Part shown: positions 32,720 through 40,474 of the stretch, piece after piece
Position numbering within the stretch: the first letter of the stretch is position 1
Layout: each line of letters begins with the position of its first letter
DNA from: Clostridiaceae bacterium
GTDB taxonomy: Bacteria > Bacillota > Clostridia > Saccharofermentanales > DTU023
NCBI GenBank assembly: GCA_012800435.1
Contig: JAAZJH010000063.1
Span: 1 to 64,000, forward strand
Length of the DNA stretch: 64,000 bases
Reading direction: 5' to 3'
Program-made: the position numbers and the translations under genes
Notes under the pieces: model-generated
Told to the model about the DNA's origin: nothing
Seen by the model: only the letters and a program-made list of their open reading frames with translations
Databases searched by the model: none

Positions 32720-34287
32720 CGTGTCTGCAAACTCCTTTCCAAGATCGATGTGACGGTACCCTCAAGGGAATATATTTTAGCATGATCGATGCGAACAAGG
32801 ACGATATCACCTGCTTGTAGCAAGTTGTTACCTGATAAAGACATCCTATCAGGTGCTGTAAAGTTGACTAAGCGGTGATCACGCGTGCGTCCTGAAAAGA
32901 TGTCAGGTGAACGTTTGCTTGATCCGTCGACCAAAACAGCGACCTCTCTTCCTTCAAGTTTAACGTTGGAATCATAGCTTAGTCTGTTTTGAAGGGCTGT
33001 AAGGCGTTCAAAACGATCGCGAATCGTGGCCTCATGGTTTGTATTGTTATCCTCTTCCCTATTGCTGCTAACAGAATCAAACCAACGTGCTGCCGGTGTG
33101 CCTTCACGTGGACTGTAAATGAATGTGAATGCCGCATCGAAGCGTGCCTCTTCCATCACGCGTAGTGTCGCTCTAAAATCATCTTCCGTTTCTCCGGGAA
33201 AACCGACAATCAGATCGGTTGAAATGGTGATATCAGGTCGTGTTTCGCGTAATTTTTTTACTAGTGAAAGATAGTGCGCCGCATCGTAGCGACGGTTCAT
33301 TTTCTTTAATATGTGATCACTTCCAGACTGAAGCGGAAGATGAATATGCGGTTCAATAACCGGTATACGACCGATTACGTTAATCAGCTCATCAGAAAGA
33401 TCGCAAGGATGGGAGGTCATATAGCGTAAAACAAAGAGTCTATCAATCAAAGCTATTTCAGAAAGAAGTTCGCTAAACGTCGGATATAGTGCGGGATCTT
33501 CACCTCTCTTACGTTCTTCTACACCATAGGAATTGACGTTTTGGCCCAAGAGCATGACATCGCGCGCTCCTTCCGAGACGGCCTGTTTTACCTCGCGAAC
33601 GACATCAGCGGCAATACGACTTTTCTCCCTTCCTCGTGTGTAAGGAACGATGCAGTACGTACAAAAGTTATTACAGCCGGTCATAATGGTAATTAGAGCG
33701 CGTTGCCGGTTCTGACGTTTAACCGGAAGTTCGCCCGATGTGATGCTGTCAGACGGTAATGATATGGAGGTAAGATCTAGCGGTTTTCCCGCGTTACGTT
33801 TTTCGGTCATTCGCGCATTTATGACGGATTCAAGCGCTTGGGGAATATGCGTCATAGCTCCGGCACCTAATATAAAATCGACATAAGGAAAAGTCGTTTT
33901 TATGGTGTTGACGTGAATATCCTGTTCCATCATGCAGCCAAATACACCAATGATGGGATAGCCTTCCTTTTTTAAAGGCTTCATATTCCCGACATGCCCA
34001 TAGAAACGATCGTCAGCGTTGGCGCGGACGCTGCAAGTATTGAATAACACCACGTCTGACTTTTCAGCCGAAATGCCCTCATGAAATCCGAGCAAAGAGA
34101 GAATGCCGGCTGCGATCTCGCTGTCATGGTCATTTTGTTGACACCCGAAAGTCTTGATGAAGAATGTCAATGGGCGACCAAAATACGCGGACATCTCCGA
34201 TACCCAGTTGCGGACACTTTCACTGACATCGTCCTTACCGGGTTCGTTAGCGCCTTGTGTAAACAATGTCTTATCGCAAGACGTCAT
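32710..34287 (-). CDS. miaB: tRNA-2-methylthio-N6-dimethylallyladenosine synthase MiaB
   Basis: FIKTFGCQQNDHDSE; radical SAM MTGCNNFCTYCIVPYTRGREKSR; TRAM-like C-terminus. Confidence 0.95.
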   Translation of the reverse strand: MTSCDKTLFTQGANEPGKDDVSESVRNWVSEMSAYFGRPLTFFIKTFGCQQNDHDSEIAAGILSLLGFHEGISAEKSDVVLFNTCSVRANADDRFYGHVGNMKPLKKEGYPIIGVFGCMMEQDIHVNTIKTTFPYVDFILGAGAMTHIPQALESVINARMTEKRNAGKPLDLTSISLPSDSITSGELPVKRQNRQRALITIMTGCNNFCTYCIVPYTRGREKSRIAADVVREVKQAVSEGARDVMLLGQNVNSYGVEERKRGEDPALYPTFSELLSEIALIDRLFVLRYMTSHPCDLSDELINVIGRIPVIEPHIHLPLQSGSDHILKKMNRRYDAAHYLSLVKKLRETRPDITISTDLIVGFPGETEDDFRATLRVMEEARFDAAFTFIYSPREGTPAARWFDSVSSNREEDNNTNHEATIRDRFERLTALQNRLSYDSNVKLEGREVAVLVDGSSKRSPDIFSGRTRDHRLVNFTAPDRMSLSGNNLLQAGDIVLVRIDHAKIYSLEGTVTSILERSLQTRCP

Positions 34288-34997
34288 ACCTGACCCTTAC
34301 GTCGTTTCGATTCGACTCTCGATGTTTTTGATCGGGATGATAGACGCGCTGAACGTGTTAATTTTTTGTTTCGTTTCTTTTTTCTGGAATGCGGAATGAA
34401 AACCAATTTAACGGCAATTTCAGGGCGAGATGCAAATGCTTTCAAATTGCCTATTTCAGTTAAATCTGAAAAAACAGCCATTTCTGAATAAACAAGGTCA
34501 TTTAAAGGCTTTTGGAAGATGATCGACAACATAAGGTTTTTTCGAGCGCCGGGATTGCGGGCTAGCCACGCGCGCACTGCAGAAAAATGAGGAATACTCT
34601 CTATTTTCAGCAACTCGCCTAACTCAACATCGTTGAGACGATCAACCGTTTCTCCATAGAATAGACCGATTCTTCGAATATCGTCGAGGTGAATTATGCG
34701 TTCGGTGGCTCCATCGTCTAAAATTAACGCATCTTGGCGAGTGATAAAAAGACGGCAATGCATTCCGATTAGGCTGGAAAGTCCGGTAATCACCAAAAGC
34801 TCACCGCCCCATTTTGCTTTTCGGGCACGCGTTTCTTTTCTGATGCTTCGACGTATCTGTGCATAAAACACGACTCTCCAAAGCAACGCGGCAAGTGCAG
34901 TCGCAGCCAAAATAAAGCCGGGCACTAAAGGCAGCGTACCTTGCCAGACCAGAACGACCGTAGCAAGAAAAAGCGTGATGAGTGCGGCGCCTAACAT
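34284..34997 (-). CDS. Hypothetical membrane protein
   Basis: Two N-terminal TM segments, soluble domain, highly basic C-terminal tail; ATGA overlap with miaB. Confidence 0.7.
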   Translation of the reverse strand: MLGAALITLFLATVVLVWQGTLPLVPGFILAATALAALLWRVVFYAQIRRSIRKETRARKAKWGGELLVITGLSSLIGMHCRLFITRQDALILDDGATERIIHLDDIRRIGLFYGETVDRLNDVELGELLKIESIPHFSAVRAWLARNPGARKNLMLSIIFQKPLNDLVYSEMAVFSDLTEIGNLKAFASRPEIAVKLVFIPHSRKKKRNKKLTRSARLSSRSKTSRVESKRRKGQV

Positions 34998-38158: not shown

Positions 38159-40120
38159 TTAATCGCTGCTGCCTGTCAATACGTTAAGCGGCGGGATCTT
38201 GAGTTTTCCGCCCGCATAAATATGGTCAGTCATGTTCTTGCCGTTGTATTCCGCTAATTTCTGGCAGAGAGATTCAGATGCCGCGTTGTAGTACTGCATA
38301 CAAAGGCTCCACCAAGAATCGCCGGCAACAATCGTATGTGTAACCTCGCCCTGAACAACAGAGGGCGATGGCTCGGTCTCAGACGGGTCGGGCGCAGTTG
38401 TTTCTGTCGCTTCGGTGTCCTTTGGATCCGTTTTAGGAGTAATCGCATTCTCCGATTCAATTGGAGTAATGGATGGTGTCGTGTCTGTCGGCTTATCTTT
38501 CTTTGTCAAAAGTTTGATCAGCGCAATGATACAGATAACAATAACAGCGACTAAAATCGCATAGAAGATGATGCGCCGCATCTTATTGTTCGGTCGACCG
38601 CGTCGCCAGCCGGCAGATGCGCGATCGTCATCGTATGGGTCGTCAAAATCATCGTAATCATCGTAATCATCGTAATCGCGATCAGAAGACGTCGCTGTAC
38701 GCTGACCATAGCCATCTAAGCGGTCATCACGCGCACGTTGATCCTGAAGTCTTGAGCGACGGCGCTGATGCGCAGATGTATAGGCAAACTCAGGGAGACC
38801 GATTCCGCTATCTTGACGAATCCTAGCAGGTTCGGCATAGCTATCATCGGCGTCTACATCATCGTAAGAATAGGATTCACGATAGCTCTCGCGTTGTTCG
38901 TAATCATAGCTGTCTCTGACTCCGGTCGTCGCGGAAGGCGATGAATCGTATGAAGTGTCGCGTGAAGGAAGACTCGAATCATCCAGCGAAAGATCATCAA
39001 ATGGCGACGTCATTTCAAGCGTATCCCCTCTGCGACGGTAAAACGGAATTTCATCACGTCGTATATCCGGAGCAGACCAAGGGGCGACATCTGCAGAAAC
39101 CTCCTGATCATCTTCTACAGGACTCTTGAAGGCGCGATACGGAGAAGTATCAGGCATCGTATCTGCTTTGCTTGGTTCATCTTTCGGTGCAGCAAAATCC
39201 AATCGATCTTGCTTCTGATAACGTTGAGTTGCCGCGATGTCAGACGTTGGACGTGCTTTTGGTTCGGGACGAGCAGGCGGAACGTCGAGTACCGGCTCCA
39301 TCGCCTGAGTGGCAAAACGACCGAGACTGAAACGACTTGTCGTTGAATCTTCCAACTGTAGTTTTTCTACGGAAAGAGCAATGACCTGTAAAGGTTTACC
39401 GGGCATATTAGCTGCAGCATAAGTGATCATCTCGCCGGATGCGTCCATTTGATCATCTGATTCGCTTAAAATACGCAAGATACCATCTTGACCGATTGCC
39501 TGATAAAGGTCGGCGTTACAAAGAATGAAACGGTCACCTTCTTCAAGTTGCGCTATATTTGAGTATGAAATTGTACCGGCATCTCCCGCGATAAAATCGT
39601 CAATACCGTCCACGGGATCACCGTAAAGATCTGTGGCCTTTAGATCACGGACTGAACTGGTCAGAGGGTATAACACATCATGACGGAAAATCAGCGCAAT
39701 GCCGTTGCCGACTGTAAGTGCGGCCATTTCACCGTCACGTACCATAATGCCGGCAAAATATGGATCACGGCTCGCTCCCTGGCGGACTTCAAGACGCCCC
39801 GTCACTTCTAGTGCCGCTTCGGCAAGGTCATTGATCGCGTTATCAATGGTTACATTGCCGCCGGACATTTCATTCGACAGGTCGATGAGCGATCGAGTTC
39901 CGACATCCGTTTTGCTACGACCGTCCATTGGATATCCGTAGACGGCGATCAGAAAACCGCGCGATTCACGATCCATGGTCATATTAGCGGAACGTGTTTC
40001 CCGTTTGCCGGGCAATTTGCCGTCTAGGCAGTACGCGTCTGCGACGCCCTCAACGGGATAATATCGAGCGTTGACGGTTGCGGCCAGTCTTGTTGTGGTT
40101 GGCGTGATCCCCTTTGCCAT
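38159..40120 (-). CDS. PP2C-like (degenerate) domain + disordered linker + single TM + extracellular LysM-like domain
   Basis: N-term FLIAVYGYPMDG / LTVGNGIALIFRHDVLYPLTSS / GDRFILCNADLYQAI align by eye with PP2C VADGMGG / NVGDSRAYL..LT / DRxLLCSDGLYD; TM IIFYAILVAVIVICIIALIKLL; C-term HTIVAGDSWWSLCMQYYNAASESLCQKLAEYNGKNMTDHIYAGGKLKIPP is LysM-like. Confidence 0.7.
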   Translation of the reverse strand: MAKGITPTTTRLAATVNARYYPVEGVADAYCLDGKLPGKRETRSANMTMDRESRGFLIAVYGYPMDGRSKTDVGTRSLIDLSNEMSGGNVTIDNAINDLAEAALEVTGRLEVRQGASRDPYFAGIMVRDGEMAALTVGNGIALIFRHDVLYPLTSSVRDLKATDLYGDPVDGIDDFIAGDAGTISYSNIAQLEEGDRFILCNADLYQAIGQDGILRILSESDDQMDASGEMITYAAANMPGKPLQVIALSVEKLQLEDSTTSRFSLGRFATQAMEPVLDVPPARPEPKARPTSDIAATQRYQKQDRLDFAAPKDEPSKADTMPDTSPYRAFKSPVEDDQEVSADVAPWSAPDIRRDEIPFYRRRGDTLEMTSPFDDLSLDDSSLPSRDTSYDSSPSATTGVRDSYDYEQRESYRESYSYDDVDADDSYAEPARIRQDSGIGLPEFAYTSAHQRRRSRLQDQRARDDRLDGYGQRTATSSDRDYDDYDDYDDFDDPYDDDRASAGWRRGRPNNKMRRIIFYAILVAVIVICIIALIKLLTKKDKPTDTTPSITPIESENAITPKTDPKDTEATETTAPDPSETEPSPSVVQGEVTHTIVAGDSWWSLCMQYYNAASESLCQKLAEYNGKNMTDHIYAGGKLKIPPLNVLTGSSD

Positions 40121-40474
40121 ATGCATACCTCCAAAATAATGACGGATGACCGATCAGCATCATGTTCGACGCGAAAAACGACGCGTTCTCAATCAGCTGC
40201 TATGTCAAAGGCACGGCGCATTTAAACGACGACCGTACCCGGACTTTATGGCCATTTGCCATGTCAAAACATTAGCATAAAAGGACAAGTGAGAAGCAGA
40301 AATGATTGTCTGTTCCTGATGTCCTGACATTTGTAATTTTTACTTTACCATGAGTCAGATAAAAGTGCTAGTAATCTAAGCGACAAAAACAGTTTAAATG
40401 TGCTGTAATTCGTGTCAGGACTACATGGCGAAGTAACACAATAAGTAGAATGTAGGCGTAATTCGCAGGTGCTT

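Follow-up and report, generated by a model that had tools for sequence, protein, structure and literature searches.

What is the job of a protein whose PP2C-like phosphatase domain appears to have lost its catalytic site and is joined, through one transmembrane (TM) helix, to a LysM module? Such a protein is encoded on the reverse strand of the 64,000-nt stretch of DNA analysed here, which we call the window. The order to which the window and its relatives belong is presumably Saccharofermentanales (GTDB); the named relatives are metagenome-assembled genomes labelled Clostridiaceae, Mageeibacillus, Oscillospiraceae and similar. The original prediction read the protein as a pseudophosphatase that binds a phospho-regulator inside the cell and peptidoglycan outside, and as a possible cell-wall sensor.

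Gene and domain layout

The open reading frame, 38159..40126 (-), has 655 codons if counted from an upstream ATG at 40126. We prefer the ATG at 40120, the start already used in the original prediction, because it sits about 7 nt downstream of GGAGG, against about 1 nt for the ATG at 40126, and because the relatives start with MAK. The main features are as follows.

38159..40120 (-): entire gene with the preferred ATG, 653 aa
39353..40099 (-): PP2C-fold domain, predicted pseudophosphatase, aa 8-256 (AlphaFold2, Foldseek, hhalign)
38588..39352 (-): disordered linker, predicted cytoplasmic, aa 257-511 (pLDDT mostly <50, composition, linker alignment)
38504..38587 (-): single TM helix with basic N-flank, aa 512-539 (hydropathy, AlphaFold2)
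38345..38503 (-): Thr/Pro-rich disordered stalk, predicted extracytoplasmic, aa 540-592 (sequence, full-length model)
38192..38344 (-): LysM domain, aa 593-643 (Pfam, AlphaFold2)

Three parts of the full-length model are confident: the PP2C-like domain (8-256), the TM helix (512-539) and LysM (593-642). The stretches between them have pLDDT <50. The long acidic, Tyr-rich linker seen in the original prediction amounts to about 240-250 disordered residues, with Asp, Arg, Ser, Pro and Tyr prominent in its composition, and contains LGRFATQA and DYDDYDDYDDFDDPYDDD. A conserved LG[RL]FxT-like motif stands right after the PP2C-like domain (window 39299-39322, aa ~267-274), is strongest in the window's family, and is possibly a short binding motif.

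Only one part of the protein is strongly hydrophobic; its centre is at 517-535, with a hydropathy of 3.45 for the 19-aa stretch at 517, and there is no second TM segment. RRGRPNNKMRR comes before this hydrophobic part, and this positive-inside flank together with the lone TM helix favours a predicted topology with the N-terminus inside and LysM outside, the one originally proposed. For the C-terminal module, Pfam finds LysM (PF01476) at aa 595-643 with 24.0 bits against a cut-off of 20.9, and in relatives the score rises up to 42.7 bits. The AlphaFold2 model shows the beta-alpha-alpha-beta arrangement of LysM, with strands at 593-596 and 639-642 and helices at 603-611 and 616-625 (pLDDT 92-96). 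LysM is the sole Pfam domain in the protein; the Pfam scan gives no kinase domain and no PASTA repeats.

Around the gene, promoter-like matches are not above those in shuffled sequence (3 vs 4.1), terminator-like matches are somewhat above (6 vs 2.7) with none at the gene end, and no RNA family is matched. The 348-bp gap between ispD and the gene (window 40127-40474) carries neither an annotated gene nor an RNA family match.

The N-terminal domain has a PP2C fold

Direct annotation of the N-terminal domain fails. In Pfam and NCBIfam scans the first 260 aa are unmatched, with no Pfam PP2C, and in a PDB sequence profile search the PP2C matches stay below significance (best E 0.34). We therefore settle the fold by structure prediction, fold search and profile-profile alignment. 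The AlphaFold2 model of the domain, built from an alignment of 56 relatives (A2), has mean pLDDT 89.9 and pTM 0.89. In a Foldseek search against the PDB, all 50 matches listed are of the PP2C/PPM/SpoIIE/RsbU type, amongst them tPphA, a Streptococcus agalactiae phosphatase, PstP, SpoIIE, PppA, plant HAB1, PPM1K and RsbU; the best match among those listed has E 9.0e-10 and probability 1.00, and TM-scores are 0.5-0.6. These moderate TM-scores make the domain a divergent member of the PP2C fold. The search with the full-length model again gives PP2C-type structures only, among the matches listed.

At the sequence level, hhalign aligns A2 with the active PP2Cs of the order plus L159, a protein described below, collinearly over 244 columns with probability 95 and E 2.1e-8, the latter being the value for a single comparison. 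A profile of the domain searched against the class and the phylum reaches ordinary PP2C-type open reading frames of 240-290 aa in Bacillota at E ~1e-6 to 1e-4. The fold search and these intermediate sequences rule out a chance resemblance, and the N-terminal domain is homologous to PP2C. The original assignment of the fold stands; its extent of 230 aa does not, as the domain runs to about residue 256.

Loss of the catalytic site

We compare the catalytic positions across 61 order members, 25 eroded members of the class, 1 intermediate and 15 active-looking PP2Cs. In the window protein the relevant positions are these.

40037..40039 (-): D28, Asp of the NED motif, the sole catalytic-type Asp left, kept in 57/61 order members
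39920..39943 (-): VYGYPMDG, aa 60-67, counterpart of the metal motif DGMGG; Gly62 in place of Asp
39689..39709 (-): GNGIALI, aa 138-144, counterpart of GDSRxYL; Asn139 in place of Asp
39509..39520 (-): CNAD, aa 201-204, counterpart of CSDG; Ala203 in place of Asp
39386..39397 (-): KPLQ, aa 242-245, aligned with DNxT; DN replaced by K242-P243, Q245 new and near-invariant

The active-looking rows retain every ligand (15/15). None of the 61 order members has the Asp of the bridging DG site, where A, G, T or S is found instead; the SDG Asp and the DN pair are likewise absent (0/61 each), and the GDSR Asp is present in 11/61. The DG, SDG and DN losses support the originally proposed loss of the PP2C metal site. 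The more sweeping statement that every placeable metal-ligand position is changed holds for VYGYPMDG, GNGIALI and CNAD, all of which align with PP2C sites, and fails at D28, which is retained. The structural points on which the original prediction hung come out in its favour: the N-terminal domain has the PP2C fold, its metal site is lost, and the C-terminal domain is LysM.

The phosphate-binding Arg of R-x-x-N-E-D, present in 15/15 active rows, is mostly T, V or G in the order and V23 in the window protein, so no conserved feature favours phosphate recognition, and binding of a phospho-regulator finds no support. The conserved TT pair of active PP2Cs is also absent from the order family. The order has near-invariants of its own, namely R40, E41, I92, D93, N97, G108, E131, T136, D164, AGxAG (178-182), Y186-S187-N188, G210-Q211, D223 and Q245. 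By homology, residue loss and the selection described next, the domain fits a pseudophosphatase, and it is probably inactive.

Conservation and selection

The protein is kept in 58/59 near relatives and in 176/188 genomes covering 30/30 genera of the order, so the open reading frame is not a chance observation. When close relatives are compared, the pseudophosphatase domain has a dN/dS of 0.033-0.042 for the window's group; two further groups give 0.031-0.033. The linker (0.14-0.24) and the stalk evolve fast, and the domain is among the slowest parts of the protein. For the active phosphatase PrpC in the same three genomes, dN/dS is 0.055-0.123, so the catalytically degenerate domain is at least as constrained as the live enzyme. 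It has from 13 (alignment A1) to 27 (A2) invariant columns. Prevalence and dN/dS rule out pseudogene decay. Near-universal retention under strong selection suggests that the degenerate enzyme probably has another job, for example tethering a partner beneath the wall. One copy, in genome G008 (L015 / L067), has an in-frame TAA within the domain, either an assembly error or a broken copy.

Architecture of the relatives and descent

The layout, which the original prediction proposed to look for in related Clostridia, is widespread in the order, and the succession of PP2C-like domain, TM helix, stalk and LysM is also found in several other Clostridia families. Most relatives have LysM after the TM helix. 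In one sub-lineage (L108, L115, L119, L112) SH3_3 takes its place; the members scanned reach 44-57 bits, above the cut-off of 27, and in L112 it is recognised by eye only. This exchange of one wall-binding-type module for another is the best indirect sign that wall contact matters. LysM is weak or absent in a few relatives, and L091, L050 and L049 lack any recognisable wall-binding module.

Outside the order, the catalytic site is found at different stages of erosion. We present the case of L159 (L159:3269-4876 (+)), from another Clostridia family, in which NED, CDGMGG, GDSR, CSDG and GGNDNIT are all intact, Pfam PP2C scores 62.9 bits, and a TM helix and two LysM follow; it is apparently a wall-anchored live phosphatase. 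L155 is nearly intact, and in L192-L213 and L219-L221 the site is partly lost. Intact and eroded members have in common, after motif 1, the signature N-x-D-x-F-Y-x-N-G-R/K-F, of which the order version is D-x-F/Y-Y-L-D-G-R. Maximum-likelihood analysis groups every eroded or dead row in a single clade (100/97), which adjoins the active L214, L159, L217 and L218. The clade is unchanged, again at 100/97, when the metal-site columns and the longest rows are removed, which speaks against an artefact of shared losses. The stem leading to the order family is long (2.1), and long-branch effects may have shifted its exact place and its nearest sister. L214, which is active, has neither TM helix nor LysM; the TM-LysM part may be ancestral and then lost, or it may have been gained more than once. 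As far as the sequences tell, the pseudophosphatase domain descends from a catalytic PP2C phosphatase.

Gene neighbours and the PASTA kinase

Only the window's family keeps radA-ispD upstream as a stable arrangement. In other relatives the neighbours are serC/serA, an ABC transporter, polyA polymerase, DUF2298, AMP-binding and PHP genes and others, so varied and unrelated that association gives no lead to function. In genus g5, a protein with a zinc-ribbon, a TM helix and three LysM is encoded directly downstream of the pseudophosphatase gene (L036:728-1897 (-), also G023:C49), and is the next gene in genome G017 of that genus. Farther off in the window, an open reading frame of 237 aa between miaB and the HIT gene (34284-34997 (-)) has no Pfam match.

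In the same genome as the window, a PASTA kinase (L063:4664-6838) adjoins an active-looking PrpC (L063:6825-7574), and both are separate from the pseudophosphatase gene, which shows no genomic linkage to the kinase-PrpC operon. PASTA proteins occur in 59/59 relatives and PP2C in essentially all. As no member of the group lacks a PASTA protein, this co-occurrence is uninformative; a link to the PASTA kinases is possible, with co-occurrence as its basis.

A proposed scaffold held at the wall, and its alternatives

We propose that the protein is a membrane-anchored pseudophosphatase that has lost its catalytic ligands and acts as a non-catalytic scaffold, a reading to which we give a probability of about 0.6. 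LysM would attach the protein to peptidoglycan wherever the glycan can be reached, and the stalk of about 50 residues would let it reach into the wall. Inside, the PP2C-fold domain would move on a flexible leash of about 240 residues, offering to a cytoplasmic partner a putative remodelled surface made of R40/E41, I92/D93, D164, AGxAG, YSN, GQ and Q245. The partner would so be kept beneath the wall or at sites of wall synthesis; our leading guess is the PASTA-kinase/PrpC circuit or its envelope-synthesis substrates. This geometry of an anchor with bait, running from LysM through stalk, TM helix and disordered leash to a conserved domain, suits a scaffold better than a ligand-induced conformational switch. 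A wider reading, which we hold tentatively and would not bet on at even odds, is that of a so far undescribed, order-wide family of membrane-spanning pseudophosphatases. These would mirror the PASTA kinases, with a dead PP2C domain where those have a live kinase, and would recruit or shield a partner and thereby control the growth of the envelope; the steps from enzyme to dead domain would still be visible in Clostridia.

The protein could instead be a true transmembrane wall sensor, in which binding of LysM to peptidoglycan alters the state or clustering of the pseudophosphatase and so regulates a kinase, a phosphatase or a wall-synthesis protein. It does have a putative wall-binding module, predicted to lie outside, and a conserved fold of regulatory type inside, the replacement of LysM by SH3_3 makes wall contact seem to matter, and the genome has both a PASTA kinase and an active PrpC. 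However, a disordered stretch of about 240 residues separates the folded domain from the TM helix and is unfit to carry a conformational signal, although clustering could still signal, and LysM in bacteria, as in LysM autolysins, mostly serves as an anchor and not as a receptor for a specific ligand. Anchoring fits such a linker better than transmission through the TM helix; the originally suggested sensor is thereby weakened, and we consider it unlikely. We are more doubtful still of a phosphate-independent binding decoy that competes with active PrpC for the PASTA kinase or its substrates and protects phosphorylation near the wall. The adjacency of the kinase and PrpC genes in L063, and the presence of both types in essentially all relatives, would suit such competition, but universal co-occurrence says little, the pseudophosphatase gene lies apart from that operon, and the phosphate-binding features of PP2C are lost.

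The retained D28 and the new polar invariants R40, E41, D164, S187, N188 and Q245 might form a different catalytic centre, with altered metal binding and some hydrolysis left, and the eukaryotic pseudophosphatases PHLPP2 and TAB1 do retain one metal ion each (PMC12002173). We find this highly improbable, given that the bridging Asp, the SDG Asp and the DN pair are gone from 61/61 members, that the phosphate Arg is not conserved, and that PHLPP2 keeps one zinc yet has no detectable activity (PMC12002173). That the protein is a purely structural LysM membrane protein with a decaying leftover at its N-terminus would agree with the lost catalytic site and with the fast evolution of linker and stalk; set against the low dN/dS, the retention in 176/188 genomes and the invariant columns of the domain, it is barely credible.

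Relation to known systems

With the bacterial PP2C/PPM phosphatases PrpC, PstP and tPphA, the window protein has the fold and a collinear sequence in common; it differs from them in lacking the bridging, SDG and DN ligands and the phosphate Arg, and in being fused to a TM helix and LysM. PASTA kinases (PrkC/StkP/PknB) combine an intracellular phospho-signalling fold, one TM helix and an outer peptidoglycan-binding module, a layout predicted for the window protein too, with an active kinase and PASTA repeats where the window protein has a degenerate phosphatase domain and LysM.

Bacterial pseudokinases are just beginning to be described. One of them, the mycobacterial MviN pseudokinase, recruits FhaA and restrains peptidoglycan synthesis (PMC12599244). 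MviN is the nearest functional parallel in bacteria: a membrane protein with a carbohydrate-binding domain, whose dead signalling-enzyme domain serves for recruitment in the control of peptidoglycan; unlike the window protein it is a pseudokinase, has a flippase-like membrane part, and has a known partner. Here, a predicted wall-tied pseudophosphatase is near-universal in one order of Clostridia and is as constrained as a live PrpC that lies beside a PASTA kinase.

In literature searches, mostly outside subscription journals, we found no paper on a PP2C-LysM protein or on a bacterial PP2C pseudophosphatase, in agreement with the original remark that no characterised protein was known to have this layout. 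The PPM pseudophosphatases found are eukaryotic. TAB1 and PHLPP1/2 resemble the window protein, itself probably non-catalytic, in having a PPM fold, lost metal ligands and conservation as non-catalytic proteins; they are of an unrelated lineage, retain one metal and are not membrane-spanning wall-binding proteins. PHLPP2 shows no detectable activity in vitro, and its unicellular relatives have retained an encoded active site (PMC12002173), just as homologues of the window family elsewhere have.

The L159 protein has in common with the window protein the module order PP2C, TM, stalk and LysM and the NxDxFYxNGRF signature, and differs in that all its catalytic residues are intact and that it has two LysM; our searches, again mostly outside subscription journals, found no description of a live PP2C-TM-LysM phosphatase of its type. 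Since Clostridia contain this layout in intact, half-eroded and dead form side by side, the step from an enzyme to a proposed scaffold lends itself to direct testing. In the same order as the window, genome G044 also carries a PP2C that looks active, followed by a long linker and, at the C-terminus, a TM helix but no LysM (L162:6817-8442 (-)).
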